Source: Saturnia japonica (Eukaryota > Arthropoda > Insecta > Lepidoptera > Saturniidae). Taken from it: a DNA stretch of 64,000 nucleotides. The stretch is from assembly GCA_033032175.1 (NCBI GenBank), contig CM065313.1, positions 15,663,327-15,727,326 of the forward strand, written 5' to 3'. Made by a program: the position numbers and the translations under genes. Of this stretch, positions 4,801 through 63,900 are shown piece by piece (the first letter of the stretch is position 1; each line of letters opens with the position of its first letter). The notes beneath the pieces are model-generated. The model ran no database searches and was not told the DNA's origin. It worked only from the letters and a program-made list of their open reading frames with translations.

Positions 4801-7800
4801 AGAGAACGCGGTTTGAAGCATTGTGAATGGTGAAGCAAAAAAAAAAGTAATAAATACTGGCGGTAAATTAAAACGATTTCATATTAAGTGCAAAGTCATT
4901 AATTACGTTACGTATTCTCACACAAATCATAATAATTTCTGTTAGCTCCTACCGAAAGAAGCTTAGGAAAAAAGAAAATATTATTAAAAGTAATATTTAT
5001 CTGCGAAAAGTATCTTAATATAGGAACTTTCCTTCTTAATGTAATGAATGATGTATTATTGTTGCATTTTAACATAACCACCGATCTGTAAACAAAACAT
5101 TAGAAAAAAAATCTCCGTGTGACTTAAAAAAAACGACTTTTTACAAATCAGAAAAATAAATGATTACAAAAGCTAGTGTGAAATCAAAGTAAATTGAAGT
5201 GTTACTAATTTAGCATAAAATCGTAGTCTAGTAAGTCTGATCCGCGTGCTTATTTTTTCTTTATATTGGCCTTTGACCAAGACATTGACACGTCGCCGCG
5301 TCGCGTCGCGCTTGTCACCAATCTACTGAATAATAAAAGTTTTAATGTAAACTTGACCGGCTTCTCTGACATTATTTTTAAGAGTCCAATAAAATATATA
5401 AATTTATAAGTCACCATTCGTATGCTGGATAAATATCTGAATCTCACAAGTCTTACAATCCGTATAAGTACACATATAATCATAGACCAAAGAAAATAAT
5501 AATAAATGTTATAAATTTTCTTACGTTATGTCCTACAAGTACTTAGTACTTTTTAGCTAGCTAAATTAAACGTAACACAGCTACGTATTTTCCATGAACT
5601 AAAAATAGAAACTCTTGAACGTATGAATGAATGAAGGAATACTAATTGTTCGTGCACTGGCGAGCTTAATATCATAAAGCATTTCCTTCCAGCCAACCAG
5701 CGTTATAAATAAAATGAGCAAACACAAGCCCATAAATCTAGAATGAAACATAAATACATATCCATTTTTAGAAAAAAAAGTATTACATTTTATTTTATAG
5801 AGACCATTTAAAAACTCACCTCTTGAAACTACAAAACACACAAAAGTGGTACCTTACCTAAAAGAGTTGATTACCATTGTATCCAATATAAAATGGCTGT
5901 TACTGTGAACAGTTCAAAACTAAACAATTAAATTCAGCATTTACTTTTTATTTTGGACACAGGGTTTCCTAACAAAATTTATTCCTTACAACCTGCATTA
6001 TCAATTATCGTAATAAAATGATATACTTTTTTTTCTAAAAATGGTTAGGTTCGATTCCCGACAAAATCTATGAATGCACTTTTTCTTATCTTTGAAATGC
6101 ATGTCATGGCTCTATAGAACATAATATGTCTTCATCTCTTATAGTTTCAGAGTTCCCCTCACTGACCCATTTAAATGTTACACCTTGTATAGTAAGCTAA
6201 ACAAACAAAATATACCCTAGTAATTGAAAAAATTATCCTATTAGATTACATCTATTTTTGTAAATTTACCTAAACATATTTAAAATTGAGACCATCACAA
6301 TGTAATAAAACATACTTTGAAAATTTGATACATACCGATATTGATTTTAAATTTATTGACTGACTATTTGTTTTACAGAAATAATTATAATACTGCTATT
6401 GCTAATAAAACGCAATAGCAATAAATCATGATTCAGACTGGTTTTATATAATTATTATTTACTAAGCACCTATTGTGTTTATGTATTGCAAAAATCATAT
6501 GTTTACCCGTTATTAGCAACAATACCAGCAGTAGGTGCGTAGTGCAGCATCCTGTGCTTTGTAAATCAGTATTGGTTATATTACAATGGAACAATTTTTT
6601 TGTCTGTTGAAATCATTTCATATGAAACTTAAATTATACGCGTAGCTTATCCTGCCATGGACCTGTTAACTTTTGTTAAGTAATAGATAAATAAGACGAA
6701 CTAAAAGACATGATACGTAGCTTATTAAAAAAAATTATAAGGTCTCGTATTCTTTGTTTGTCTTTTCATGTCACGTGATTAAAATGTATATTAAAATTAT
6801 TTTCCCGATGAAAGCGGTACATTGCATTGTGGTTTAAAATTATTTTACTACATTCGCCTGAAATACAAAGTGTTTTTGATTGAAATAAGGAAAAGCAATA
6901 AAAAAATGTTATTGAAAGGATAAAATTATTAAATGGAATAACGATAAGAATAGATAAGCTGTAGAGATTTTTTGCAAATCTGGAACAAGGAAGTTCAAGT
7001 GGACAGACAATATTACATCAAATAAACGAAATATTGGACATATTAAAAGTATATTTAGAAGTAATAAAACGAAGCACAAACTTGGAATTTAGTGTTCTGC
7101 TGATATTTTACATTGACATTAGCATACAAGTTTTATTGAAGGTACCATTTTAAAGGGTAATTAAACAGATTTAAACTCACTAGTTCTTGTTTAAAATTAC
7201 CAATTACAGATGCAGAAAACTTTGCGATACAGTTGACACCTACATTGTTTGTGACAGGGTTTCGCCCACTTACACGCAATGAGATCATGAAAACAATTTT
7301 AGTAGTGAATACTTACGGTCTTTACCATAAAAAGCTATGCATAATACAGTAATTTTAAGGAAAAACTTATTCTTTGCACGTTAAAATCTAATTTAAGACG
7401 TTCTTTTGGATTGTTTGTTAAGAGAATTCTTTATTTAATCTTATAAACTAAATAAAATCACGCCATATTCTAATAATCAACTTTTCTAACAATCTGAATC
7501 ATTTTGTAATGATTAATGCTCGTTAGCGAACAAGACTGGCTCTAGAGTTTGGTCTTATCCTCCCTTATAGGACAAGCTTTCGACGCACGTGCGCTTAGTA
7601 ACTGGTCACGAAGAGAAGGCGACTTCTTGGCGCCTGTGTTCTAGCCTCCGATACTGTTACTCACTATAAAATTATTCTTCGTATTGTATCATTTACTTCC
7701 GCATTTGATTCACTGCAATATGTGTCTGAATTATTTCTGTCATTATCACCGCTGTGCTAATGTGAATGAAGGAAAACATGATAGCGAAGCCTTGCCATTG

Positions 7801-25137: not shown

Positions 25138-26736
25138 CACACATCAAAAAAGTCTAAGAAACATGCGTGATATTACAAATTTTTCCATTTATATTAATTA
25201 ATTTCTAAATATTTACTCAAACAAAGTGCGTGGGTAAGTAAACTTTTTTTGTTATTGATGACATACTGGCTGGTTGTAAAAAAAAAAATTGATTATGTTT
25301 TGTTTTTTCATAAAATTCAAATGACTGCGAATTTGTTTGAATTTAAGTGCGTTTTAATTGCTACGTTTAGTCTTGATTTTATAACTTTACCAACCATTTA
25401 AATAAAGTTAGCGACAAAATTGAATTATTAGATATTCTTTACGTCATGAAGCGACGTCATTTGATGGCAGATGAAATGCAAAGAGCTGTAGGGATGTTGC
25501 AAGCGGGAAGTAATCAATCTCAGGTATCTCGACATTTTGGCATTCATAGAAGGGTTATTTGTCGTTTTTGGCAGCGCTACAATAATACAGGAAAACCCGC
25601 TGAACAACATCCAGGCCGTAAAAGGAGTACAACCACTCGGCAAGACCGGTACATACAACTGACTGCAAGACGCCAGCCGATGTTAACCGCTCGAGAGATA
25701 AGTTTGAGGCTACAAATTTCAAGTGGTGTTGATGTAAGTCCTCAAACTGTTCGAAATCGACTGCATGAATACGGCCTACGAGCTCGAAGCCCAATCAGGT
25801 GCCCACCGATACGTCACGGGAATCGCGCTCGTCGATATGAATGGTGTAGAGAACGCATAACATGGACCCAGGAACAATGGGATAAAATTATGTTTTCCGA
25901 TGAGTCGCGATTCGGGTTTAAGCCTGATACAAGAAGGGTGCGAGTGTATCGTCGGCCCGGAAATACTGAAAGGCTCAGGTGCGTTCAGGAAGTTCATCCA
26001 TACAGCGGCTCAACAGTTATGTTATGGGCGGGTATTATGAAGAACAGGCGATCTGAGCTCGTTTTTGTAAATGAAAACATGAATGCTGAAAATTACATTG
26101 AGGATATTCTCAGACCTTATGTCTACCCATTTGCACAAACCTTTGGCTCCGATTTTAGGTTAATGCATGACAATGCGCGTTCACATACAGCTGGCGAACC
26201 AGTGAATACTTTGCAATGGAGAACATCCGGGTATTGCCCTGGCCTGCACAATCGCCAGATCTCAACCCCATCGAGCACGCATGGGACATGCTCCAGAGAC
26301 GTGTTTTGAAGGACTCGGACGGAGCGACAATAACCCAACAGCTGAAGGATTTGCTACAATTCCATTGGGAGCGAATACCGCAAGATGACATAAACAGTCT
26401 CATTAATTCAATGAATAATCTTTGCCGACAAGTTCTGAATAGCAGAGGAGCACATACTTTGTTTTAAATTGTTCTATTCTTTCACAATAAATACATTTTC
26501 TTTAGAAATTTCATTTTGTAAGAAAAAAGTTTAGTTTCTTATGTATCTTAGTTTCTACAGTATATTCTAATATTGTTCATTTCTGTTATTAAAAGAACTT
26601 ATAAAGACAACAGCTATTATTTTTACATCATAGAATCCTAAAGATATTATTTTAAAACTAAAATACAACGTTATAATGTGAAGAACCATCCTAAAATTTA
26701 AATGAGTACATGTTGCTTAGACTTTTTTGATGAGTG
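25138..26736 (+). mobile_element. Tc1-type DNA transposon, full length, DD34E
   Basis: A 1.6 kb element bounded by inverted repeats at 25138-25158 and 26716-26736 (20 of 21 positions agree; core CATCAAAAAAGTCTAAG). It lies in a run of TA dinucleotides, the Tc1/mariner target. It carries one transposase gene (25446-26467) whose three catalytic acids are all present, with a single frameshift near 26205. Intact ends plus one lesion suggest a fairly recent insertion, still mobilisable if transposase is supplied in trans. Confidence 0.9.
25446..26467 (+). pseudogene. Tc1 family transposase with one frameshift
   Basis: Transposase of the IS630/Tc1/mariner superfamily, which cuts and joins the element at TA sites. 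Starting at ATG 25446, an N-terminal paired-type helix-turn-helix region is visible (SQVSRHFGIHRRVICRFWQR, then VSPQTVRNRLHEYGLRARSP). The catalytic triad is D in FSDESRF (about residue 150), D in MHDNARSH, and E in SPDLNPIEHAW. Joining the two frames gives 34 residues between the second D and the E, the Tc1 value. The frame at 25446-26309 is lost near 26205 (change of frame by one base), and the C-terminus VLPWPAQSPDLNPIEH... continues in the frame ending at 26467. The total of about 340 residues is normal for Tc1. Long antisense frames over the gene are shadows. Confidence 0.9.
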
Positions 26737-35100: not shown

Positions 35101-38100
35101 ACTCCTGTTCGAATTTAGTCATTGATAGGTTGTTACTCCCAAGCTCAAGTTCCTTCCTACTTCTCATGGCAGTTCTCGTGTTTCAGTGCTTGTTGCCATC
35201 TTGCCTTTCAAATTAAAATACAGCACTGCAAGCATTGGTGTTCTAAAGTAGAAATAAGTATATCAGTGTATGCTTTTGTAGGTAAACCTTGCTCAGTACC
35301 ATAAAAATATTTGTATTAATCGGACGAGTTATAAAGTTGACGTGTTTATACATGTACTAAATGTACTTCTATTTCTGCATTATATTATTACTATGAAGGA
35401 TGCAGTAGAACATCCATATTCGTGATTTTTTTTTTTTCATTTCTTCTTTGAAATATTTGAGGCTAGTAAATAGGAAGTAATTTAGCAAATAAGTGAATTT
35501 TAATAACCGAGTATGGACCACTTTACAAAGTTTAATCTAGTTTCTGAATAAATTCCAAATAACTTTTCAAAAATAAATCTTAATAAAAAATATAGATACG
35601 TTTTTTGCATGGTAATATTTTAAATTTAAATATAAATATTATGTTGTATTTTGCTTGCATTTTAATATATGTATTTCTAAACCTGCCAACACAAACTAAA
35701 CGTGTTAAATATCACATCTCTTAAGTAAATATACATATATCTTAAGAAGAAGACTACTACTCTGTTAACGGTTTAGAATTACAAAAAGTAAAAAAAACAG
35801 CGGCAATACACGTTTATATGCGTCAAATGATCGCCTCGCGTCGACCGCGCCTGGGTCACGGCCTCGTGGTCTGCTTGTGACCTATACCTTACTCCGCTCT
35901 GTGCGATACTGGTTTTGTTGGACCCACGCTACCTTTGGAAGAATTCTCAATCTTATTACCTACAATTTAATAGTTAATTTGGATTCACATGAAGATTGTT
36001 CCGAACTTTCTTTATGGCAAGCCAAGTTATACTCGTTGTTTTTTGGCGTCCGAGAAAATGTTCTCAGAATAAACATAATATTCTCGTTCTGAATTTGTAA
36101 ATAATAATTATTGTTAAGTCGTATCTCTGTTTTCCTCATTCAAATTCATGTACTGATTCCGTTTGGGTATGGGTATCAAATGATTCTTTTTTATACAACT
36201 AAAGTGGCAAATAATCATACGGCCTGCCTAATGGTAAGCGGCTGTCCTAGATATGAATGTTTGTAATACCATAGGTATCATTAGCGCGTTGCCGACATTG
36301 AACCCCCCTACACCAAGCCCCAAGGAGCTCTGGAAACCCTCTTCACAACAGGAACATAACACAAAGTTGTTAGACTGCAAACTGCTGTAGAATGAATAAT
36401 AATAATAATGCAAGCATCTAGTATCACAATTGGGTCTACCCAATTATACCTCTAGGTATGGGCTATTAGGTGCGAAGTACTGTCAATATAAATGCCAATA
36501 AATCTATAATTTTGTGTTTAAATCGTATTACTAGAAGTTGTCCAAATTCCGCAAAAAATGGTAACCTGTTGGAGCAAGGTCCGGGGAGTACGGTGGATGT
36601 CGCAGACATTCCAGTTGTAGCTCATCTAACTTAGTGGTTGTTTGTTGTGCAGTGTGTGGTCTTGCATTGTCGTGAAGCAGCAGTGGCCTAGAGTGATTGA
36701 CCAATCTCGGTTGTTTAGCAACTAGTTCTTGCAGTTGCTGACAATAGATATCTGCCGTAATCGTTTGGCCAGATTTTAGAAAGCCGTAGTGAACGACACC
36801 GGCGCTAGTCCACCAAACACTCACAAATAACTTTTTCTGAATCAATTTTCGTTTAGGGCAGGATTTGGCTGGATCTCCAGGGTTCAGCCATTGCGACGAG
36901 CGCTTCCGATTATCGTACAATATCCACTTTTCATCACAAGTAATGATTCGATTTAAAATTCCTTCATTATTGTGTCGGTTGAGCAAAGTAGTACAGCAGT
37001 CGACGCGTGTTTACAAGTTCGATTCACTCAATTCATGAGGTATCCACGGTTCAAGTTTTTTTACTTTCCCGAATTGCTTCAAGTGGATTAATACAGTTTT
37101 ATCACTTACCCCGAAGCCTGTAGCTATCTCTGAAGTGCTTTGTGATGGATCCGCTTCCAAAATAGCCTTTAATTCTTCATTTTCCACGTTGGTCTCTGGC
37201 CGTCCACGGGGTTGGTTTTGAAGGTCGAAATTTCCAGAACGAAAACGTTGAAACCAAAAACGTACCGTACTTTCTTTTGCGACACCAGAGCCGTACACAT
37301 CCTTAATCCTTCGAGCTGTTTCTGCGGCACTGGTGCTATACGGTAGAACTCGTACTCGTAAATATACCGAAATTTCATGTTTTCCATTGTGCGGTAATAA
37401 GCGACGCCAAAAAAAATTATGAAGTCAAATGTACCAGCTAAATGAATTTATAAATTTGAATTTGGAATTCTTAACCAAAGAGGAGATATTTCAGATCAAA
37501 GTGGTCAGTACGACAAAACGCTAATTTCATATTTAAGGACCTAATACTTTCTTGTTCCATGCCGAGGTTTGAGACCGAGGAAATTTAATCGATATTTTAC
37601 TGGTCTTAACGAATAATTTTACTACTATCAAGTCTAAATTTATATCAATAAATAAAATTGAAGTGTTTGTTTGTAATGTCAAAATAACAGATTTTACTAA
37701 ATACATATGAAAATATGGACGTAAGGTAATGATACTAAAAAAAACAATTAAAAAAAAGTTTTTCTGTTTGCTCCAAGTAATGTTCGAAACGTCTGAACCA
37801 CTTTTGACGGGACTTTCACAGACATTTATCTAATGTTATAAGGAGTAACTTAGGGTTCCGCGCAAATTAAAATCAGTTGGGAAAAACGATAGTTTTGGGG
37901 CGCATAAATAAATGGCTTACGTTGAGTAAAACATAAGAGATATGCTGGAAAATTGTAATAAAAACTGTGGTCACATTATATATGAGTTGGCAACCCGAAA
38001 AACTATCAAAAGAAAAAGATGTCCGTACAAAAAAAAATACATAATATTATATCGTAAAAGTTTTATTTTTGTTAAGAGGTTAAATAGTAGTGTTTAATAA

Positions 38101-41100
38101 TATAAATAAAAGAAACATTAGTCTACATAATTTTATATACCACGCCAAATTTTAAATTCAAAATACCTATACAACAAGATATTAATGTAGTATATAATTG
38201 TTGCTCCATAATCACATAAAAACTCCTTTTTAATACTCGATGGGACTGGCAAACGCAGCTGACAGCTGTCATGCATTATGTATTCGTCGAATATTTGGAG
38301 CAAAGAATATACTACTCTCTACCGAGAAATTTGGAGCTCAGATCGCGAGACAAGCAATATCACTGTGCAAAAATATCATATTTCTAATAATAATAATAAT
38401 AATTTATTTGTAATAAATGCAGGTTACATGTAGGTATTTGGTATATAATTATAGAGTCCGTATACTAGTCACATTGCGGCGTACAAATATTAGATTAAAT
38501 TAAACTAATTGTCACAAAATATACTTATACTTACATTAATAATCCTTGAACATATACACCTAAGAGATATGCGTACAATAGTCGTCTGCCTTATTATTAT
38601 TGAAGTTTGTGTTATAGAATAAAATGATTTTTCTATTAGCCACAATTTAAATTTTATGGCAAACCTTTTTTCTGTCAGTTCCCTAATATCGTAAGGGACG
38701 CCATTTTATATACGTCCACACATAGCATAACAGTTCTTATAGTACAGTGCTGTTTTTGGTGGTCTAGGTAAAACAATTCTATCAGTATGTATTCCTTGTA
38801 ATCCATGTGAGCGCAACCACGGGTACAGCTATATGGTATAAAATGAATTTAGAAAGAAGTAGAAATCTGACTGGTAGGTAGAGTTCCAAAGATGTTTCCA
38901 GGACGTTCAAAGAAAATAACCATCTCTTGAGCTTTATTATATAGATGTTTATAAATTATCTTAATACGTTTTTTTTTTGTAAATAAATATTTTCTTTCAA
39001 CAGGAGTTATTTACCCAATTACAATGGTCGGTGGATCGCGCTCCGGCTCCAGACGCACTGCGCCGTGCACTAGGCGGTGGCGGTGCTCGCTTCCAGCTGG
39101 GGTGTATGGCTGACGCGAGCGAATGCTTCGAACACCTCCTGTTGAGAGTCCATGCTCACATAGCTGCTGGCGTTGGAGATAGGCGTGATGATGACACCTG
39201 CAGAGCATCCCATTGCATTCCCCACCGAAAGTTCGCGATGATGCTTGTCGAGCAATCAGTTTGTGGAGATTGTCACGCTACATCTGAGCCATTGCCATTC
39301 ACTCAGGTAAATCACACGAATATTTTATTCGCACATAAATTAGTCAGGTTGGGCAGCGAAATCGTAGGATAGAATTTTATATGATACTAGCTGTGTCTCA
39401 CGGTTTCACCCGTGTTAATTTTATACGACAAACATAGCCAACGGACCCGTGTAAGCAATTTTTTTACTTTGTGTAAAACTATCGACATTTTTATGAGATA
39501 TAAATTAATTTTTAAAATTATAATATAACCTATGTTACTCGCTGATACTGTAGCTTTATAGTGGTGAAAGAATTTTTAAAATCAGTTAAGTAGTTTTTGA
39601 GTTTATCAATTACAAATAAAAAATAAAAAACAAACAAAAAAAAAATATTTCCTCTTTATAATATTGGTATAAAAAAAAAAAAGATTTTTAATATCTCGAA
39701 TGCAATGATGGCTCAGTAGTAACTAGTAGCATATACATACACCGCATCGATCCACGACAAATAAATTATATGTTATCCGTAGGTACTCGGTTAATAAAAT
39801 TGATTTAATTTTTTGATGCAAAAATATAATTCTCTGCCTTATTGAATGTTTTCAGATGGTTCACTACGTATCCGCTACGGCTCTGACTACACAAATGGCT
39901 CTGGGTGAACATGGTGACAGTTTTGGCCTTCTGTTGAGAAAAGCTGGAGGCATGGGTGACATCAGAGATTGTCCAGTAAGTATCAGCCTTCGTAAAAACA
40001 CTTTCTGATGTAAATTTTATTTATATCGAATTATATTATAAACATCATATTTCAAAACAATGCTTTCTTTTTTCAGAATGCATGTGGCGCTAAAATACAA
40101 ATATGTCGAACATTAATGAATCGGCCCGAAGTGGTATCAATCAGCATGGTGTGGGACTCCGATCGACCTGCTGCAGAACATGTAGCCGCTGTATACGCTG
40201 CTATCGGTACCGAGTTGCGACCTACAGATGCTTTCCATGCGTGCGTAGACAGAGCTTGGGCAGCTAGGGCCACCCACCACCTCGTCGGACTCGTTACATA
40301 CTACGGAAAACACTATTCGACTTTCTTTTTCCATAGTAAACTTAGATTGTGGATTTACTTTGATGATGCAGATGTAAAAGAGATCGGGCCCGAATGGTCG
40401 CAAGTCGTAGAAAAATGTAAAAGAGGCAGATTTCAACCGCTTCTCCTTCTCTATGCTGCAGTAGATGGAACACCGTGTGATACTAGACATGCTCCAAAAG
40501 ATGTCATCCCATTTCCTGCTCCAGAACCACGCCGCGCAGTTACTCCCGCACCGGAAAGGCCAGCCACTGGGTTTGCTCGACGAGCTGTGACACCCGGTCC
40601 TGACAATGAAAGCGACTATGTCAGTAGGAAAGCAGTTGAAAATATGCTCGAAGTACAAGCGAATAGACGGGCACAGTTAGCTCGCAGTCTCAGCACTGGC
40701 TCTGCGTCTGACCCTCATGAGCGTCCTCGATCACGCCGAGATTCAGGGAACTGGAGTGGAGATCGAAATAGTGCATCTTCAGCCTCTTCCTCCACACCAG
40801 AAAGCCCATACATGTATCCTAGAGGTAGAGGTCCTGGCAGTATACCAAGCAGTCCAACACGGAGAGAGTTGTCTAGTGGAGGATCTTGTGATGCAGGCTA
40901 CGATTCATATTCATTATCATCAACAGATAGTCTTCCACTGCAACAAAGTCTTCGTCATAATCTACAATTGGCACAGTTACCAAAAATTACAACACCAAGT
41001 GACAGTGAAGTTATTTGGGCAGAAGTAGACAGACTGATAAGTAAAGCATCCAAAGCTGAAGATGCGGGAGATTTTGAAACTGCTATTGTTTTGTGTGAAG

Positions 41101-44100
41101 CAGCAATGTCTAAAACTCGTGCCGCTATGGAAGCTCCATACAATAATCCTCACACGATAACGGTAGCTCGATTGAAACACAACGTTTGTCTTACACTAGC
41201 ACGTAATCTTCAAAGACGTATGGCTATGTCTAAATCCTCTGAGGCTACCCAAGGCGCTTCTATGAGAAACACGAAAAGTGGTCTTGATAATGCTTCTGGT
41301 AGTATTGAGATATATGCTACGTTACCGAAAAAGAAAGGCTCATCGAAGAAGTCCCCCAAATGTATTGAAGAGGATATCGACACCATAACACGTGAGCGGC
41401 CGCCTAGACATAAATCCCGCGAAGATGAAAAGTTGAGAGAAAAACGGTCTAGAAGTGAAGACCGAGGTCGAGCACGTAAAGAAGTACCTGTAACCACAGA
41501 GAAAAAAGAAGAACCTGTTGAAGACAAAAAATCGAATAAAAAACAACACAAAATTCGTCGAAAATTATTAATGGCAGGCTTAATTAGACGAAAAAATAGG
41601 TCAATGCCAGATTTGACAGAAGGTGCAGATGGAACAACTGAAAGCTCCAACAAAGAACAACGGGTATCTTCAGTTGATGATACAGACGTGGGACGAAAAT
41701 CAAAAGATGATAAAACAAATTTAAGTGGTTATCTCTCAGAAGGCCATTTGGACTACTCTGTAACGAGTGGTACGAATCCGAATCTAGAAAGAAGTAAATT
41801 AATGAGAAAGAGTTTCCACGGTAGTGCCGGTAAAATATTGACAGCTACGAAAGTACCACCTCCTCCGCCACTACGAACCACATCCCAGCTTAGCGGGACT
41901 AAGTATGGATACGTGGAACATGGCAAGGAGACTTACACGCCAGAAATCGAAGAAGACGGTGGTTTTTCTGAGCAGTATGGTGATGAATCGCAGTCTATGC
42001 CTTTTATTCACTCTTACGAAGAAAAGTCTGTTAACCATTATGACAGATTAGACAACTCACCGCAACAAAATTACCACACAGTTGTAACAAAAGCCATGAT
42101 TCATCAAGAACAAAGTCCTGTTAAAAGAGATACAATTCAACCGACACAGCCACCTCCCAACAATATTCAAAACCTATCATCGGTGTTAGATTGTGGTGTA
42201 GATGTAGTAGACTGTGCGGTGTCTATGAGGAGATCTCCACCAATATTTGAATTACCTCCGTATCCGAGCCCAATGAATTCTGTCAGTCATTCCAGACAAG
42301 CCAGTGAAGAATTTCCACCTCCTCCACCACCTATCGACTTGACACCTCTTCAAGAAGAATTAAATAAACTACAGTCACAAAGTACGGATCTGTACGAAAC
42401 GAAAACAAAGGCTGCTCGCGACACACTACTGGCTCTGTTGCAAGAAAAACGAAACCAAATACTTCGAAATGAAAGTTTGTCAAAGCTGCAAGAATTAGAA
42501 ACAGCGAATAATTCCGTCAACAATATATTAAATGAACAGATAAATCAAAACAAACAAGCATTTGTTATTCCAAGTAAACAACTTAAACGATTCGGTTCGT
42601 TGGAAGGACAACTGTCTCCAACTGAAAATCAAAAGATGTTTGAAAATAATAACAGTGTCAGGAACATTGCTGGTAGATTTGAAAATAGCCTGCAAAATCT
42701 AACGCCCGAGACTGAAAGATCTCATATCGGTTCGTGGGTATGAGTGGCACTCGTGACGTTATAAACTGCTCAGATCAGTCTAATAGCGGACTTTATAATC
42801 GTCGAGCGTCTTCATCGTCAATAGATCCTATGCAAGTGGAAGAAGATAATAATGATCATAAAATTTCAAATGCTATCTACGGTGACCGCTCAAAGTCTAA
42901 AAAGAAATCTGTTTCTTTCTGCGATCAAGTCATTTTGGTTTCTACAGCGGAAGACCAAGAGGAAGACAGTTACATCCCCAACCCAATTTTAGAGAGAGTG
43001 TTAAAATCAGCGATGAATAAGCCCGAACTTACAACGATGCCTCTACAGTCGGAGAAACCTTCTCTTCAAAGACAAGATTCGTTTGATAGCCAATCATCAA
43101 GATCGACAATTTCATCTCTGTCTCAGAACTCATTTGTTCCAAATGAAAACACTCATGCTGATTATGTGAGAGTACAAAACACGTATCCAACATATCAGTC
43201 GGCACAATCTCGTCTAAAACCACAGTATACTGTACAAAAGAGCACCGGAGTATATGGGACAAACTCACCTGTACAAGTAACAGAAAGTCAAAGTTCTATG
43301 AGCAACAATCAAATATATCAGGTGCTTCCAAACAATACACAACAAAATACCACAAGTCCTATACCGTACAATCAGCCACCGTCAGTCTATCCGAATCAGA
43401 GTAACGCGAGCCCACCGAACTTTAGTCAAAACCCTGCGAATAGACTGACGCCGACTGTTCATAACACCACCTACCCGGCTAAGCATAATGCTAATTTACA
43501 AAGACCTGTACCCAACACGTACCCGCACCCACCGAGCCAACTTCATCAGGTAAATCAAACTCCTAACAATGGTTACTATCACCGCGTACCACAGAACTCC
43601 ACAATACCGACGATACCGAACAATAATTATAGTACAAACCGTCACTACAACAACGCGCAGACCAACCCTTCGCCATACCAATGCATACCTAGCAACTCGC
43701 CTGCCTACCAGAACTATCACAGCCCACCGACGAACTACATTGCTGAATATTCTAGTCGATACCCGCAGGCGAATGCTAGTCTCTACAATCAGTCACATTA
43801 TCATAGAGTTCCGCCACCCCATGGTGAAATTCTCGCCGAAAATTTCAACACCTACCAAAAAATACCTAACAATTTTTACCATGATAATCCTAACCAACAA
43901 CGAGTTGCAGAAACGAGACTCTACTCAAACTCTCAACAACAGCAACGTACCGCGTACAACCAAAACAGCGAAAACATCAACAACGATCAACACGGCCAAT
44001 ACCAGTTTAATCAAAACGTTTACAATCCGTACCAACACGTGCCAGCTATAAAGCAACTACAAAAAAAGACTGTATCTTTCGAACCGGGCACAAAGGGTGG

Positions 44101-44275
44101 TACCGATTCTCCAATACCTCCGCAAATGAATAGTAACACTTATTCAAACGGTGACAGTCAGGCGACTGCCGATAAATTGCCCTGTAACTTGTGCCGCAAA
44201 AAATATGTTACGCCGCCGTCCCTTTATTGCCCAGATTGTGATTTTTATATGTTAAGGTTTAAACCGCGCTCGTAG
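28858..44275 (+). CDS. ec: USP53/USP54-family ubiquitin hydrolase-like protein, orthologue of Drosophila echinus (gene span)
   Basis: Gene-level entry. Plus-strand exons 28858-29106 (candidate), 39004-39306, 39856-39975 and 40077-42737, plus a C-terminal segment 42738-44275 in another frame; all introns listed are GT-AG. The product belongs to the USP53/USP54/echinus family: peptidase C19-like catalytic region, then a very long disordered tail. In Drosophila, echinus controls pruning of interommatidial cells in the eye; the vertebrate members were long called inactive and more recently reported to act on K63-linked ubiquitin chains (both from memory). The visible coding total is about 1,620 residues. 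Two oddities: no exon with the catalytic-cysteine box was found between 29106 and 39004, and a one-base frame change occurs at 42738. Polyadenylation signals follow at 44555 and 44571. Confidence 0.85.
29264..29521. repeat. probable LINE/SINE-derived segment open on both strands
   Basis: Both strands stay open for about 230-258 bases. The minus strand contains TGCCTATTCCTTCGGGGAAT followed by ACAGGCGTG, which resembles a phrase common at the 3' end of lepidopteran RTE-type repeats (CTACCCCTTCGGGGATA...GGCGTG). Phase also argues against an echinus exon: no acceptor keeps exon 1 open into the plus-strand frame. Confidence 0.3.
30951..31469 (+). mobile_element. Helitron-like non-autonomous element, family A, copy 2
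   Basis: Begins TCTATACAATTAATAAAATT and ends AGCCACGGGCACAGCTAG, followed by T. About 520 bp, same sequence as 1320-1842 in opposite orientation. Lies in the echinus intron. No coding capacity. Confidence 0.65.
31975..32060. repeat. lepidopteran interspersed repeat scrap
   Basis: ACTTAACATCAGATGAGATT followed by GTGGTGAATCGCT resembles a phrase often seen at the 3' end of lepidopteran LINE/SINE repeats. Short, without clear ends. Confidence 0.25.
33914..34428 (-). mobile_element. Helitron-like non-autonomous element, family A, copy 3
   Basis: Minus-strand copy with TC end at 34428 and CTAG end at 33914. Nearly collinear with 1320-1842, including the GGTTTACTCAGCATAAGCCA and TGTTCC/GGAACA blocks. 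Intronic in the echinus orthologue. Confidence 0.65.
36200..36400 (+). repeat. SINE remnant
   Basis: CGGCCTGCCTAATGGTAAGC, GCGCGTTGCCGACATTGAAC and GAGCTCTGGAAACCCTC are recognisable segments of a common lepidopteran SINE, ending in an (AAT)n tail near 36398-36410. No B box remains. Confidence 0.5.
36466..37544 (-). mobile_element. mariner element (DD34D type), internally deleted and inactive
   Basis: Minus-strand mariner bounded by TA at both sides (36464-36465 and 37545-37546); both ends start TTAGGT. The right end reads TTAGGTCCTTAAATATGAAA inward. The transposase shows three kinds of damage: a TAA codon at about 37011-37013, the third catalytic aspartate changed to glycine, and loss of the C-terminal coding part after LRNLDNF, where a stop occurs at 36531. 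At 1.08 kb it is shorter than the usual 1.3 kb. Confidence 0.85.
36531..37387 (-). pseudogene. mariner transposase pseudogene
   Basis: Begins [14 protein letters not shown] on the minus strand at 37387, then [20 protein letters not shown] in a neighbouring frame (one small frameshift near 37330). The helix-turn-helix region follows ([23 protein letters not shown]-like, [18 protein letters not shown]), then the [11 protein letters not shown] signature of mariners. An in-frame TAA follows that signature. The catalytic domain has D in [10 protein letters not shown] in [11 protein letters not shown], and [11 protein letters not shown] where active mariners have SPDLAPTDYHF, so the third acid is lost. 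The last about 75 residues are deleted. It belongs to the cecropia/Hsmar1-like mariners, the group from which the SETMAR transposase part derives. Confidence 0.9.
37647..37965 (+). mobile_element. Helitron-like family A, 3'-truncated diverged copy
   Basis: AATAAAATTGAAGTGTTTGT, TTTTGACGGGACTTTCAC and ACATAAGAGATATG blocks align with 30951-31300; the CTAG end is missing. Confidence 0.5.
38388..38745 (-). mobile_element. LINE (CR1/L2-like) C-terminal fragment with (ATT)n tail
   Basis: On the minus strand, sequence matching the end of a reverse-transcriptase ORF is readable with one stop: [11 protein letters not shown], then [20 protein letters not shown] and [11 protein letters not shown]. This is the 'LPxDIR...FKxxLKxWLxxxSFYSI' ending of CR1-like LINEs. 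The 3' region ends in an (ATT)n repeat at 38388-38406. Strongly 5' truncated. Confidence 0.55.
39004..39306 (+). CDS. ec: echinus orthologue, conserved peptidase C19-like exon
   Basis: Begins after TTTCAACAG and ends before GTAAAT, both in phase 0, giving 101 codons. It starts ELFTQLQWS, the point just after the CIFCALK segment of USP53/54. It then carries [31 protein letters not shown] (family RFQLG(I/L)MDDAAECFEN(L/M)L), CIPHRKFAM and [15 protein letters not shown]. The CxxC in CGDC is half of the zinc-binding finger. One change stands out: DDAAE is replaced by ADASE. Vertebrate USP54 aligns closely over the whole exon. Confidence 0.92.
39387..39675 (-). mobile_element. Helitron-like remnant in an echinus intron
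   Basis: CTAGCTGTGTCTCACGGTTT at 39387 corresponds to the CTAG side, and TTTATAATATTGGTATA at 39655-39671 to the TC side on the minus strand. Diverged; fills most of the 549-base intron between the two conserved exons. Confidence 0.45.
39856..39975 (+). CDS. ec: echinus orthologue, exon with end of the zinc-finger region
   Basis: GTTTTCAG acceptor and GTAAGT donor frame exactly 40 codons in phase 0. It starts [17 protein letters not shown] and ends [10 protein letters not shown], matching the family segment MVHYISTTALCN...MGDLRNCP. The C of DCP and the C of the following exon's NACG form the second half (CxxxC) of the USP finger. The internal segment is shorter than in vertebrates. Confidence 0.92.
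40077..42743 (+). CDS. ec: echinus orthologue, main exon: His box, MIT-like region, disordered tail
   Basis: TTTTTTCAG acceptor, phase 0, starting [20 protein letters not shown] and open to TGA at 42741 (888 codons). The USP core ends here: [31 protein letters not shown] with the candidate catalytic His at 40311-40313, [13 protein letters not shown] with the paired Asp at 40362-40367, then PLLLLYA. A helical segment at about 41000-41225 ([44 protein letters not shown]) is the MIT-like block shared with USP54. The remainder is disordered and rich in S, R, K and E, with PPPPP runs (about 41858, 42318) and a predicted coiled coil at about 42340-42570 ([12 protein letters not shown]...). The stop falls in TCG TGG GTA TGA, right where the next frame takes over. 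Confidence 0.92.
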   Translation, partial: NACGAKIQICRTLMNRPEVVSISMVWDSDRPAAEHVAAVYAAIGTELRPTDAFHACVDRAWAARATHHLVGLVTYYGKHYSTFFFHSKLRLWIYFDDADVKEIGPEWSQVVEKCKRGRFQPLLLLYAAVDGTPCDTRHAPKDVIPFPAPEPRRAVTPAPERPATGFARRAVTPGPDNESDYVSRKAVENMLEVQANRRAQLARSLSTGSASDPHERPRSRRDSGNWSGDRNSASSASSSTPESPYMYPRGRGPGSIPSSPTRRELSSGGSCDAGYDSYSLSSTDSLPLQQSLRHNLQLAQLPKITTPSDSEVIWAEVDRLISKASKAEDAGDFETAIVLCEAAMSKTRAAMEAPYNNPHTITVARLKHNVCLTLARNLQRRMAMSKSSEATQGASMRNTKSGLDNASGSIEIYATLPKKKGSSKKSPKCIEEDIDTITRERPPRHKSREDEKLREKRSRSEDRGRARKEVPVTTEKKEEPVEDKKSNKKQHKIRRKLLMAGLIRRKNRSMPDLTEGADGTTESSNKEQRVSSVDDTDVGRKSKDDKTNLSGYLSEGHLDYSVTSGTNPNLERSKLMRKSFHGSAGKILTATKVPPPPPLRTTSQLSGTKYGYVEHGKETYTPEIEEDGGFSEQYGDESQSMPFIHSYEEKSVNHYDRLDNSPQQNYHTVVTKAMIHQEQSPVKRDTIQPTQPPPNNIQNLSSVLDCGVDVVDCAVSMRRSPPIFELPPYPSPMNSVSHSRQASEEFPPPPPPIDLTPLQEELNKLQSQSTDLYETKTKAARDTLLALLQEKRNQILRNESLSKLQELETANNSVNNILNEQINQNKQAFVIPSKQLKRFGSLEGQLSPTENQKMFENNNSVRNIAGRFENSLQNLTPETERSHIGSWV
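42738..44275 (+). CDS. ec: echinus orthologue, C-terminal segment in the -1 frame
   Basis: An open frame of 513 codons overlaps the end of the previous frame (open from 42734, no ATG needed) and stops at TAG 44273. It begins [14 protein letters not shown] and holds [20 protein letters not shown] (42899-42955), PNPILERVL, and a long N/Q/P/Y-rich low-complexity region (about 43280-44050). Next comes KKTVSFEPG (44063-44086), and a terminal zinc-ribbon-like [20 protein letters not shown] (CxxC...CxxC) precedes the stop. Codon use and composition match the upstream exon, so it is very likely the same protein. Joined directly, a one-base change at 42736-42738 (a GGG run) is needed. A canonical intron cannot be excluded (see finding). 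Confidence 0.8.
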
Positions 44276-46827: not shown

Positions 46828-47515
46828 AATTATCATAAAATTGAACTTCTTTGGTTTAGAATCAGGCAATTTGAGGTAGACGAAGTGTATATTTGTTCTA
46901 AGTCCTGATTTATTTTATTTCCTGCCCCAGTATGATTATTAGGTCGGAATGAATTATAAAGCTTAAGGCAATCAAAATAAAGTAGTATTGACTGACAGTG
47001 ACTGATATTATCAATAATATCTGCAGTATATAAAGTAAACAAAATACGACCAAGAATTGAACCTTGCGGAAATCCACGAGGTAAATAAACCGACGAGGTA
47101 ATAAAAGAGCACAGTTTTATATCGTCCGGTTCCACTATTTCTACATACTGCTGCCTAATAATGAGGTAACTTTGAAACCAACTAATTGCATTATTATCAA
47201 ACCCGTTAAAAGAAAATTTTGATAAGAGCAGTGAAACGTTTATGTAATCAAAAGCACGGGAGAAGTCAAGTAAGACCAGAATTTTGCACATACTATATTT
47301 TTTCTTGTCTTGCAGGAAGAAAACTTTCAAACAAAAACATCCAAAAGAGCCGTTGATGTACTATGGCTCTTTTTAAAACCCGATTGGGCCCGTGGAAGTA
47401 TCAGGTTGCCTTCGAAATATTTTATGAGCTGCTTACTTACTAATTTCTTTAGAAGAACAAGAACTCTTTACGGGTATTTATATAAACTCATGATATTTTT
47501 TTCCACAGTCCACAG
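46828..47515 (-). pseudogene. LINE reverse-transcriptase fragment (jockey/CR1-like)
   Basis: The minus-strand frame 46833-47330 contains LLDFSRAFDYINVSLLLSKF (palm motif A), WFQSYLIIRQQYVEIV, GFPQGSILGRILFTLYTADI (motif B) and YFDCLKLY, where the catalytic F/YADD box reads FDC, so the polymerase is dead. Further upstream on the same strand (to about 47515) another frame adds LPRAQSGFKKSHSTSTALLD, showing a frameshift. Both ends are truncated. The fragment abuts repeat E copy 1 and lies just left of the inverted-repeat element. Confidence 0.8.
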
Positions 47516-47601
47516 TTAAATTTCATCCGTCTCTTGTATAGTCTCCTCATCGATTCAAACAATTAATACGCCTCCTGGACCTGTACACGTCCTACACTAA
47601 A

Positions 47602-48144
47602 TAGCCCAGTCATATTAGGGCTTTCACCTCGGAATGAAAGATAATAAGCTGCAAATTGGTATGAACCTTTGTTTTGTCATTCTAAATGTTGTCTCAAAAG
47701 TCACAATCGTTATCGTGTCCGCGTCTCAAGATATTCAAGGTCAAAGGTCACAAAAATCGGTTTTTCGCGAATATCTGGCTTCCTATCGGTTAAATGAGAT
47801 TTGCATTTATTATAAAAGTTGTAGGCTATAAAATTCCCTACAACTTTTGTTTAAACTTTTTTTTCATACAACCAACCGTTTTGAAGGTAGAGCGCGAAGA
47901 GTGCACATCGTACAGTCATATACGGCCTAATGCAAGGTCAAGCGTGAGTTATGGTTATCAGTACGTTATAAAGTCAATTATTTACTTGGAAATTATAATT
48001 ATTAAACAATGCCTATTATTTATGTACTAACTATTAATTATTTATATTTAATTAAAGTAAGTAACTTGATTATTTATATATAATTATTCATATTTAACTA
48101 TTTAAGTATAAAATATTATTAATTCTGGATTATATATTTTAGTT
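47602..48144 (+). repeat. left inverted arm of the 2.8 kb element
   Basis: 543 bases. Contains an internal small hairpin, AAAAGTTGTAGGCTATAAA...CCCTACAACTTTT at about 47814-47848. AT-rich inner half. It ends at TTTTAGTT, the last bases shared with the right arm. Confidence 0.9.
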
Positions 48145-48232
48145 AAAGTTAAAACGCGTCGATAAGGTTTTACCGCTTTCAGCCATTAACAAATCTGTCA
48201 AAATTAATGATTGTAAAGTTTCTATAGATCCA

Positions 48233-49714
48233 ATGTTACTTTTCCAGAGAATAACTGTAAGCAAAAAATTTGAAAGTAATTTACAAGAATATCTTCAGTA
48301 TGAACTAAGCCCGTATCCGACATCTTTATTTGATAGTAATGGCATGAGAAAAACCACGAAAGCAACATTATATGACAATATGATGCCTGTCGTTATCGAT
48401 CTTGATGAAAATAATGTAACATACATCATCGATGGTGGATTTCTTCTGCATCGCGTCGTATGGAGCAAAGATGATACTTTCTCTATTATTTTAAATAAGT
48501 ACATTAAATATTTACAAACACATTATGGCTCAGCAATTGTTGTTGTATTTGACGGATATTCGGACTATAGTAAAAATATTAAAGCACTGGAACAACAAAG
48601 AAGAACTGCTGCACTTTCAAAATCATATGAAGTTTGTTTTGACGAAACAATGGTTGTGCCAATCAGTCAAGAATTTTTTTTATCAAATCGGTCTAATAAA
48701 AAAAAATTTATCGACATGCTTGTTGAAAAATTTAAAACGGTTAATATCACAACAAAACAAGCCAGAGATGATGCTGATGTTCTCATCATTGACACAGCTA
48801 TTGCCTTATCAGAACATCAAAAGACTGCTGTCATCATAGGAGAAGATATCGATTTGCTCGTTATTTTAATTGGACGTACTCAGTCACATCATCAGGAATT
48901 TTTTTTGAAAAAAGTTGGCAAAGGCAATGTCAAAACACAAATATATTCTACTAAAAGTTTTGACCAATATCCTCGTACTAAAAAGCACATTTTATTTTTA
49001 CACGCATTCAGTGGCTGTGACACGACTTCTGCGCTATTTAAAAAAGGAAAAAAAACTGTTACTAGAGCATTGGAAAAAATTCCTGATTTAGATAAACTGG
49101 TGGAAGTATTTCAACAAGAAAACTGCCCAAAACAAACATTATTAGAAAATGGAGTGCGCATCTTGTTGGCATTATATAATGCTCCAAAATCTGAGGACAA
49201 CATTGATCATTTCCGCTACACGCAATTCATCAAATTTACAAAACTAAATAAACCTGTACAACTGTCAACACTTCCACCAACAAGTGTAGCAGCTCATCAA
49301 CACATAAAACGTGTCTACTACCAGATTCAAACGTGGTTAGGGAAGGACTTAGAACCTCAAGAATGGGGCTGGATGCTTGAAAATGAAATCCTGGAGCCCA
49401 TACGAACGTTATTACCTCCAGCACCAGCCGAACTACTAAACGTAATATTTTGCAATTGCAAAAATGGTTGTGGTTCCCGCTGTGGATGCAGAAAATCAGG
49501 GCTACAATGTTCTTTAGATTGCGGCCAGTGCAACGGACAAGCTTGCCTCAACGCTTCACTGTATCCAAGTAATCCCGATGAAGAAAATACATATGATCCC
49601 GATATTCTGGAAGGTTTGGAGATGAACATGACAGATAATGAGGATGATGACAATGAATCGAACATTTTTGAGCGACAAGAAGAAGAAGACGACGAAGAAG
49701 AAGAAGATAATTAG
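48233..49714 (+). CDS. XPG/FEN1-like nuclease fused to a tesmin/TSO1-type CXC domain
   Basis: 493 codons from ATG 48233; the frame stays open upstream to 48143, exactly the inner edge of the left arm, and the added residues (VLPLSAINKSVKINDCKVSI) look coding, so the true product is longer or spliced (acceptor-like CGCTTTCAG ends at 48182). Core motifs follow the order of FEN1/XPG nucleases: YIIDGG (D67), VVVFDGY (D107), RDDADVLIID (D179, D180, D182), IIGEDIDLLVI (E204, D205, D207) and FSGCDTTSALF (D263). All acidic positions are kept. Then LPPTSVAAHQH, EWGWM and LLPPAPAELLNVIF lead to CNCKNGCGSRCGCRKSGLQC and SLDCGQCNGQAC (residues 407-438, nine cysteines), a CXC DNA-binding domain. The tail is very acidic. 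AATAAA lies at 49814. Similar multicopy proteins are remembered from other invertebrates. Function (nuclease of a transposon or a captured gene) is inferred. Confidence 0.75.
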   Translation: MLLFQRITVSKKFESNLQEYLQYELSPYPTSLFDSNGMRKTTKATLYDNMMPVVIDLDENNVTYIIDGGFLLHRVVWSKDDTFSIILNKYIKYLQTHYGSAIVVVFDGYSDYSKNIKALEQQRRTAALSKSYEVCFDETMVVPISQEFFLSNRSNKKKFIDMLVEKFKTVNITTKQARDDADVLIIDTAIALSEHQKTAVIIGEDIDLLVILIGRTQSHHQEFFLKKVGKGNVKTQIYSTKSFDQYPRTKKHILFLHAFSGCDTTSALFKKGKKTVTRALEKIPDLDKLVEVFQQENCPKQTLLENGVRILLALYNAPKSEDNIDHFRYTQFIKFTKLNKPVQLSTLPPTSVAAHQHIKRVYYQIQTWLGKDLEPQEWGWMLENEILEPIRTLLPPAPAELLNVIFCNCKNGCGSRCGCRKSGLQCSLDCGQCNGQACLNASLYPSNPDEENTYDPDILEGLEMNMTDNEDDDNESNIFERQEEEDDEEEEDN

Positions 49715-49866
49715 CTTCCATTTCCAATTTCATTACAATTAAAATCAACAAAGATACTTTTGATATTTGAACTCACATTTTGACAAATGTATATTATGCC
49801 GTATTTAATAATAAATAAAAATATGTGTAAAATATATACTCTTACTATCATTTTAACTTAAAATAC

Positions 49867-50416
49867 AACTAAAATATATAATCCAGAATTAATAATATTT
49901 TATACTTAAATAGTTAAATATGAATAATTATATATAAATAATCAAGTTACTTACTTTAATTAAATATAAATAATTAATAGTTAGTACATAAATAATAGGC
50001 ATTGTTTAATAATTATAATTTCCAAGTAAATAATTGACTTTATAACGTACTGATAACCATAACTCACGCTTGACCTTGCATTAGGCCGTATATGACTACG
50101 ATGTGCACTCTTCGCGCTCTACCTTCAAAACGGTTGGTTGTATGAAAAAAAAGTTTAAACAAAAGTTGTAGGGAATTTTATAGCCTACAACTTTTATAAT
50201 AAATGCAAATCTCATTTAACCGATAGGAAGCCAGATATTCGCGAAAAACCGATTTTTGTGACCTTTGACCTTGAATATCTTGAGACGCGGACACGATAAC
50301 GATTGTGACTTTTGAGACAACATTTAGAATGACAAAACAAAGGTTCATACCAATTTGCAGCTTATTATCTTTCTTTCCGAGGTTGACCCCTTTTTTTACC
50401 TAATATGACTGGGCTA
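49867..50416 (-). repeat. right inverted arm of the 2.8 kb element
   Basis: 550 bases, reverse complement of 47602-48144 with only a few differences, listed in the element entry. Carries the same internal ACAAAAGTTGTAGGG...CCTACAACTTTT hairpin. Confidence 0.9.
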
Positions 50417-50641
50417 AAATGTAACAAACATAGACGTATTACGTTTACAAATAGTTTTTAAACTTGAATGTTAGCTATCAAACAATTTTATCAAGCAAGT
50501 AGGTAGGGATATAATATATTAAAAATTTTAATTTTTTTTTTGGTGTACCTGTAGATAATCATAAGTTTAATGAAATCTGCGCGTGTAATTATTTGATTTT
50601 TCTCACATTAAAGTCGATATGGGCCGAGGTTTTACTCACAG
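50417..50641. other. spacer between the inverted-repeat element and array unit 1
   Basis: 225 bases of AT-rich sequence not seen elsewhere in the window. In the other array units the corresponding position holds a different 305-base spacer. Confidence 0.4.
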
Positions 50642-60237: not shown

Positions 60238-60369
60238 CCCTAACCTGTCACGACTGTCATTTCTTGGCAGTTCTCTAATGGCGACAGCCGATAGCGGGTG
60301 ACGGGTGTGTTGAGACTGTCATATTTTATATTTTTTGAATAAAGGTGTAAGTTCCGTGTTTACGTAAAC
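60238..60369 (+). promoter_or_regulatory. promoter / 5' leader of the Golgi mannosidase gene
   Basis: 132 bases between the candidate hAT-like element and the ATG. Contains three CTGTCA words (60246, 60254, 60325 region) and a CpG cluster GGCGACAGCCGATAGCGGGT, with no clear TATA box. The start codon context AAACATGA is favourable. Exact transcription start not visible. Confidence 0.35.
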
Positions 60370-60978
60370 ATGACGGGGATTTTACCTTCATACCAGCGAT
60401 TCGTGAATGGTGTACCCGTACCGTCCATATCTCGGCGTTCCTTTCGCCTTCGAGAAAAGTATTTGATTATTTCTGTACTTTTGACATTCGGAATCGTGTG
60501 GTTAGGAGCATTATTTTATCTACCAGAATTTAAAAGTTCAAACAGTGTGAACGATAGTGTTTACAATGTATACAAGCGAATTCAGAAAGCAGGACCAGAA
60601 TTGCTTATGCCTCCGCCTCTGGCACGAAACGAAGTGGGAGATTTCCCTGTCGTGGGTATTATTCGTCACGGAGAGGACGGAGACGACCCTCACATAGTAG
60701 AGGACAGGAATCGCCTCAAAGCAAAAATTGACGAAGATATGGGCATGAAAGTTTTGGAAAGACCGCAATTTGACGTAGTTCCACCTATTTCATCATCGCG
60801 GGGGCCCAGTAAGCCCCCGGTGGACACTATTGAAGAGCCTGCTGTGGGTAATAATGGAGTAAACAAAGACATTTTCCCACCAGGGCTCAAGGCAGAAAGC
60901 TCTAATAAATATGCACTTGTTGCAATGGCACCAGGAGCAGATGAAGACCAAAAGCATAAACTGGAAACGGTTAAAGGG
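60370..60978 (+). CDS. alpha-Man-Ia: Golgi alpha-1,2-mannosidase I, first coding exon (rest beyond window)
   Basis: ATG at 60370 opens 203 codons ending GTT AAA GGG before donor GTGAGT at 60979 (phase 0). The product is a type II Golgi membrane enzyme of glycosyl hydrolase family 47 that trims Man9GlcNAc2 to Man5GlcNAc2 during N-glycan processing. Seen here: a short cytosolic tail (residues 1-30, with RRSFRLREK), one transmembrane anchor (about 31-51, YLIISVLLTFGIVWLGALFY), and the luminal stem (VNDSVYNVYKRIQKAGPELL, VLERPQFDVV). The start MTGILPSYQRFVNGVPVPSI closely matches the lepidopteran Sf9 enzyme as remembered. The catalytic domain, calcium site and conserved cysteines would be in later exons, none of which was found before 64000. 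NDS at residues 61-63 is a possible N-glycosylation site. Confidence 0.9.
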
Positions 60979-63900
60979 GTGAGTCTTCAATCATTCTTTT
61001 AATGTTAATATAAAATGATAACCACATACTAATATTATGTGTGTATTGAAATTGAACAGGGACATATTAATATTAGAGTGCCATTAAAGACACAAGTTGC
61101 TACACATGTTTGTTTGTCAATTTATGTGATTTACTTTTCACTCAAAGTATTAAATAAATTGAATATTTAAATAACAGGTACATTATATACATGCAATTAG
61201 GCTTTTCATATTGTACACATTTTCTGTATTTATGGTATTCTGGAATATAGTGAGTATATGTAAACACTTATAGGGGCGTAACTTAAAGCAAATAAATTTC
61301 CATAACATTTAAGTATTGCTTTTCCAATTGCTGCAAATTTATGCACAATGAAACACATTTAATTAAATCCTCATATGTCTGCTTGGTTATGGAAACTGCC
61401 AAAAGATATAGATTATAAATGCATTCTGAAAGATAATGGGTCATCTATATCTATACAATTAATAAAATTGAAGTGTCTGTTTGTAATGTCAAAATAACAG
61501 TTTTTTACTAAATGCATATGAAGGTATATACAATACCTATAACAAAAAGTCCATTTTTACAAGTTTTGTCTATCTGTCTGTTTGTTCCGGGTAATCTCTG
61601 AAATGGTTGGACCGATTTTGACGGGATTTTCACCGATAGATAGCTGATGATATAGGGAGTAACTTAGGCTACTTTTATTTTAGAAAAAGAATTAGGGTTC
61701 CGCACAAATAAAAAAAAACTGGTCATGGTGAATCAACTTGGGCACCTAAATGGCTTATGCTGAGTAAACCATAAGAGATATAGCAAATTAATGTACTACA
61801 TAATTATAGGCATTAAAAAGACCTACAAAAAAGTCTATGAGAGTATATATATCTCTCTTCTAAGGAACACCCATAATAAGCATTTCTGTCTTTAAAATAG
61901 CTGGGAGTGGGGGAGCTCCTACTTTTTATGTTTTAATTATAAAAATATATAATATTTTTATAGACGATATATCTGACAACCCTGAGAATGATATTGAGGG
62001 AAATGAATGTTTAGAGCAAAAAGAAAATTGTAATGGCAAAAGTAAAATTAAACAGAATGTCTATGAAATAGTCAATTTTTCTGGCTAAAAGAAATATTAT
62101 GAATGTGACAGAATAATAAAATAAAAAAAACGAAAAGTGAAATTGAAGTTGGCTATGGTGTGCTGTGATCAATTCAAAACTATATTCAAAGAAAATTATA
62201 AAAATATTAGATAACATATGTAAATCACAAATTGCCCTCACAAAAAAAAAACCTCATTAGACCAAAATGATTATAACAGATGATAGAATTAAGTATTTTG
62301 ATATTCCATTAGAAGCTGATGAAAGCCAAAAAATGGAAACCTTTTGAAAGCTTAAATGTTTGAGTTTTTGTAGGTTTTAATAGTTTAAGAAATATTTTTA
62401 TAATGTGAGTGTGTGTGTGTGTGTCTACAATTAGTGAAAATGGATGTCTATTATTAGTAGTTTAATTTTTTTCTAATGTCTTCTAATAATTACTATGACA
62501 AATTTAAAAAAGTACATATTACAATATAAAATATGTTTATTGGTTAAGTTTTTATGGTAAAGAGGTCTCCAAATGTTACTTTACACATATAAAATACTGT
62601 AACTGTTCTAAATAAGTAAATATATTTGATTTAAAAGCATAAAGTTTGAATATTCCTTAAAGTCTCAACTATTAGTGCCTGTACCTTACCTATGCTTTTG
62701 TGTTTTGTATTCAATTGTAATGTTTGGAATTATTATCTATACAAATAAGACTAAATAAATAGAATATATGATTATTTTTTTGTTGCAAAGGGGATACCTT
62801 GAAGGTGGTTCAATTTTAATCTTTTAGGTATTTGCCCTTCGATTTCGAAGATACACCAGGGAACTCCTCAAAATCATTGAAGTTGGTTTTTTTCCTTTTT
62901 TTTAATTGTCTTATGTTACATAACGTTGCAAAACACTGCCTAAAACCTTATAAGAAAAAAACTTCTATAAAAATAACTGTTTTAGGCTTTTAGGACAATA
63001 ATAATTTGAAAACTTTTACCTGGAAATTTGGGAAATTTTGCAAAACTGATTTTACTTTTTTCTAGTAGATTATTTACGAACTCAAGATCACAACTTTAAT
63101 GATGATTATTTATTTGTTGTTCTGTTTGTTACACTACTGGAAATGTTTTCACAAAAAAATTCAGGATAATGGTTGAGTTATTAGTTGTTAGAAATTACAG
63201 AATGTGTCTGTCTGGCCAGCTATTTTAGATAAATCACATTGAGAGATTGATGCTTCACATATAACATTTTATGGTGATTAATACTGTTTCATTAGGGTCA
63301 TACAGTTTTAGTTGGAGAATGAACTATGAAAATTCTTTTAGATTTCGTATAATTCATTTGATATTTTACATGCCCAACAATTTGTTTAAGTACTAAAAAA
63401 ATATTGTATAAAAAAAATTGTAATCATGAAAAACTAGGAGACTGTTTTTACAGAGTATTCAGTTTATATTTAACTAAGGGCAGCTACTACTATTATTGAT
63501 ACTATTCTTAAACAACAAAGTTTTTATTTTGGTGACATTGATATTATCTGACTGCATCTTCTTATAATCTATTGTAAATACAAAGTTGTAGTATACAAAG
63601 CTTATTCCCACAATTAAGTTTACACCTTACTCTGAGAAAATTACAGATCAAAATAACAGTATTCATTATAAATATTGTTAAGCACTGACAAGACAATGCA
63701 AAGTGCAATTAATTTTGTAGGCCTTGATGGATATTGTGACCTTCTTGGGTTTTACACTGTGCACAGTGACAAGAGTTTTTTAATAAAATCTACATTTTAG
63801 AACTTTACATTTACTATTCATTCATAAGTTGATGTATTAACAACAACAAAATCTATATAAAAATGGATAAATGAAGTTGATAAACTCCCAAAACCTTTGA

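Follow-up and report, generated by a model that had tools for sequence, protein, structure and literature searches.

AcademX transposons encode an XPG-type nuclease, and their cysteine-rich zinc finger is said, in Kojima's 2020 description, to be a Cys8 finger. Academ is counted among 17 DDE/D superfamilies in PMC10294476, which puts the mean length of bivalve Academ elements at 5,565 bp. Target-site duplications are given in PMC10045372 as 3 or 4 bp for AcademX and 9 or 10 bp for AcademH, a difference linked there to the encoded nuclease or helicase. Recently active and horizontally transferred Academ elements of Lepidoptera and parasitoid wasps are cited in PMC5704228 (Zhang et al. 2016), the hosts being B. 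mori, M. sexta, D. plexippus, Biston betularia, Cotesia vestalis and Microplitis demolitor. A 64,000-nucleotide stretch of the Saturnia japonica genome (contig CM065313.1, positions 15,663,327 to 15,727,326; henceforth the window) was found to contain a 2,815-bp element at window positions 47602-50416. It is very probably a non-autonomous copy, shortened by an internal deletion, of an AcademX-type cut-and-paste DNA transposon that was active recently.

The element consists of inverted arms of ~545 bp enclosing a single open frame. The original prediction, made from the window's letters, had described this architecture, and it was confirmed by an overall arm identity of 97.1% and a frame of 493 codons. 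Mismatches between the arms lie ~19-35 bp inward of the tips, together with one 2-bp indel. The left terminal inverted repeat (47602..48144, plus strand, 543 bp, beginning TAGCCCAGTCATATTAGG) is identical to positions 1-543 of L020, a full-length copy from the same genome, and the right terminal inverted repeat occupies 49867..50416 on the minus strand. At the deletion junction (48144), element base 543 is followed by base 3632 of L020, from which the match continues to base 5908. As a result, 3,088 bp are gone, with one base ambiguous; all nine other full-length copies have 12 more bases than L020 in the deleted stretch. A genome-wide search through the 580 Mb, which covered the window copy's junction alone, found a single occurrence of a 41-bp pattern spanning it. 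Because this exact junction occurs only once, no lineage of movers with the window structure was found. Compared with the ten full-length copies, the window copy shows 8-17 differences in 2,803-2,815 shared bases and is therefore young. The window copy is a private, non-autonomous internal-deletion derivative and not a new mobile class. The recent movement that had been predicted is borne out by these few differences, while the arm-to-arm conversion offered as its alternative is not needed, since all ten full-length copies have the same long arms.

The family was characterized in the 580-Mb assembly (402 contigs). A left-arm search returned 539 first-look candidates. The 40 of them that were scored yielded 41 matches, of which one stood at 95% across 324 bp and the other 40, the window's own arm among them, at 100% (rounded) across 540-546 bp. 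A 35-mer from the left end occurred exactly 183 times genome-wide and was absent from the reversed control. Twenty of the 39 other near-complete arms were fetched at 8 kb, the remaining 19 being fetched as 951-bp pieces. Ten fetched copies measured 5,817-5,933 bp, one 4,377 bp and seven 1,069-1,871 bp; the other two showed only a left end within the fetched stretch. An exact 3-bp duplication, no longer and of varied sequence, flanks all 18 two-ended copies, and the window copy is likewise bordered by AAA at 47599..47601 and 50417..50419 as read in its flanks. Insertion L024 lies inside a repeat, other copies of which (in L023 and L015) continue uninterrupted through the insertion point. The family is a transposon with fixed ends, and the multi-copy arms, shared ends, constant duplication length and empty sites by which the original prediction proposed to recognise a mobile element were observed in this genome, the empty sites as paralogous ones for L024.

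A full-length member is ~5.9 kb long; its inverted repeats measure ~545 bp, and its single gene has ~1,480-1,520 codons. The frame is open in one of the ten full-length copies (L020, 1,522 codons) and interrupted by stops or frameshifts in the other nine. Mean divergence among the full-length copies (45 pairs) was 0.55% in the coding region, 0.37% in the right arm and 0.15% in the left arm, the last value being biased by the selection of copies through their left-arm match. An assembly artefact was considered and is not supported, as the family is spread over many contigs. A protein-alignment scan of IMG/VR yielded 179 pattern stretches and no relative, and a 16-mer of the terminal inverted repeat had four exact matches there, with no further arm seen by eye in the 201 bases around one of them (L001).

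The transposase frame remaining in the window copy runs for 523 codons from stop to stop (48143..49714, plus strand) and was aligned to its relatives; from the first ATG it encodes 493 aa (48233..49714, plus strand). The predicted model of this protein has a FEN1/EXO1/XPG-type fold at residues 72-405 (48356..49357, plus strand) containing seven acids that are kept in 47-49 of 49 alignment rows. A CXC-like cysteine-rich stretch near the C-terminus (49451..49546, plus strand) contains nine Cys conserved in 47-49 of the same 49 rows, and source names of relatives read "Tesmin/TSO1-like CXC". The combination of an XPG/FEN1-type nuclease with a CXC-like domain is as first proposed, and the fold of the structure model supports that nuclease call. 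Pfam gave no credible match and no CXC family for the window protein (best Nipped-B_C, with E 0.017 and a score of 15.6 bits where the cut-off is 26.4), and a PDB sequence search with it gave no match up to E 10.

Insects, spiders, molluscs and corals all have named relatives, some of them proteins of ~1,440-1,550 aa, and many of their source contigs are ~5 kb, roughly one whole element. The window frame aligns with residues 953-1466 of the 1,475-aa relative P0161. Its alignment begins at residue 952-991 in 12 of 13 long relatives and at residue 645 in the shorter P0125. Judged from these alignments, the window frame is part of a larger protein.

The gene of the full-length copies encodes, in order, an N-terminal Cys-containing segment, a DDE/RNase H-like domain, the XPG/FEN1-type nuclease and the CXC-like tail. 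The DDE-type domain thus precedes the nuclease within a single frame, and its D, D and E are conserved. In the window copy, the sequence encoding this domain and the N-terminal part is gone, and the nuclease and CXC regions are left. A structure model of the missing half had its best structural matches in the P-element, Hermes, Transib and RAG1 transposases, with DDE enzymes or RAG forming the top 19 of 50 rows. Two points weaken the DDE assignment: the Foldseek result taken alone is not significant, and the model is largely helical. Identity to the P-element, Hermes, Transib and RAG1 proteins is 7-12% in the structural alignments, and neither a FEN1-like nuclease nor a CXC tail is known in these transposases. 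PF20231 (DUF6589) matches the DDE-type region above its cut-off in two of the six relatives scanned (P0176 and P0208). This family may represent the Academ transposase core; a literature search on DUF6589 returned no paper.

By description, the family fits AcademX because it unites a DDE-type core, an XPG-type nuclease, a Cys-rich tail and 3-bp duplications. The nuclease, the DDE-type domain of the full-length copies and the 3-bp duplication (18 of 18 copies and the window copy) are AcademX features, and the nine conserved Cys near the C-terminus may correspond to Kojima's finger. The family's length of ~5.9 kb compares with the bivalve Academ mean of 5,565 bp quoted from PMC10294476. Unlike AcademX, the window copy itself is missing the DDE half. 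The Academ elements cited in PMC5704228 are similar in occurring in Lepidoptera, and they may belong to the same family as the present element. Beyond general Academ papers, targeted literature searches gave nothing on this element family.

The arms of Foldback (FB) elements are built of tandem subrepeats and vary in length. The present element resembles them in having long inverted repeats around a centre. It differs in that its arms lack long tandem subrepeats, containing only short, low-scoring AT-rich arrays (the longest 71 bp with 65% matches), and in that the family has fixed ends with 3-bp duplications and the same full arms in ten of ten full-length copies.

After excision, a gap that was repaired incompletely, or some comparable event, could have given rise to the deletion in the window copy. 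Such a copy would be mobile only in trans, using transposase supplied by other copies. Based on the published contrast between AcademX and AcademH, the nuclease may assist DNA processing beside the DDE core and have a bearing on why duplications are 3-4 bp long.

Deleted P elements make a product, KP, that acts as a regulator. By analogy, the 493-aa nuclease-CXC protein could be expressed from the arm and bind the family's ends in trans, or compete in the transposase complex, as a natural regulator of Academ transposition. This role is improbable. In its favour are the open frame and the position of the left arm, naturally the gene's upstream region, whose end now lies only 89 bp from the ATG at 48233, but nine earlier ATGs separate the left end of the element from 48233 if transcription starts that far upstream. 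Moreover, the window structure is single-copy, and in so young a copy an open frame would be kept by default. If the protein did act in this way, it would provide a separable handle on the role of the nuclease half.

Even less probable is a new class of self-mobilising element, made up of a nuclease and a CXC reader within giant inverted repeats and moving without a DDE transposase. The window copy has exactly these parts, its frame is open and its acids are conserved, and the original prediction had raised such a design. However, ten of the 20 fetched copies are full-length and carry the DDE-type domain between the same ends and 3-bp duplications, the 3,088 bp deleted here having removed it, and the window junction is unique within the search described above. 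Another copy retaining part of the nuclease is L052, which joins base 542 to base 3918. The companion suggestion of an Academ-like relative reduced to its nuclease was right, the reduction being a one-off internal deletion in one copy. A tempting false novelty is thereby removed, as the nuclease-only "transposon" turns out to be a single deleted member of an ordinary family. Assignment to AcademH or another helicase-bearing lineage, to which the Academ-like size and layout would also be suited, is similarly remote, given duplications of 3 bp and not 9-10 bp in 19 of 19 copies (the 18 and the window copy), the presence of a nuclease domain, and a Pfam scan of six relatives (1,460-1,508 aa) that found no helicase family up to E 1.

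With the window copy read as a deletion derivative, what is documented is a young, high-copy AcademX-type family in which one copy has kept an open frame, the duplications are fixed at 3 bp and deletion derivatives have arisen repeatedly. Such a family would lend itself to functional work on the reason for the coupling of a DDE core to a flap-type nuclease in Academ.

Among the named proteins compared, the closest relatives of the L020 protein were from Euphydryas editha (98% over ~1,150 aa; P0234, a cluster of 91 sequences), Diatraea (90-91%) and Henosepilachna (88% over 364 aa). Identity to the butterflies Pararge and Parnassius was 39-40%, as against the values for the moth Diatraea and the beetle Henosepilachna. 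Identities of 76-91% were also noted across insect orders for P0002 (Henosepilachna), P0057 (Diatraea) and P0235 (Brassicogethes). This pattern of sequence identity suggests horizontal transfer of the family across insects, although the Pararge and Parnassius relatives may belong to other, paralogous families.

Deletion derivatives were noted elsewhere in the genome (L014-L016, L022, L023, L028, L029, L031, L032, L036, L037, L039, L041, L043-L047 and L049-L052). Departure from the reference on the left side fell at 540-740 in nine of the 20 fetched copies and in 13 of 18 usable 951-bp pieces. Right-hand breakpoints lay at 4612-5059 in 14 of 16 readable cases, the others being at 5576 (L016) and 3918 (L052). 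This pattern may point to cis requirements that differ between the two sides, or to gap repair proceeding from one side. Common breakpoints were seen at different places in the genome, namely 615 to 4719 in L028, L037 and L045 and 736 to 5054 in L032 and L039; some short derivatives, unlike the window copy, therefore seem to have been amplified themselves. In L043, L044 and L050, the left arm is followed by an apparent reverse complement of the right-end region (judged partly by eye), and these copies appear to be longer fold-back forms.

Elsewhere in the window, three frames look by eye like remains of a Tc1-like element (25377-26309), a mariner-like element (36531-37424) and a reverse transcriptase (46833-47360). 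Long frames at 40014-44275 and 60343-61002 resemble host genes, and the latter, by eye, is similar to the first part of a type II membrane mannosidase.
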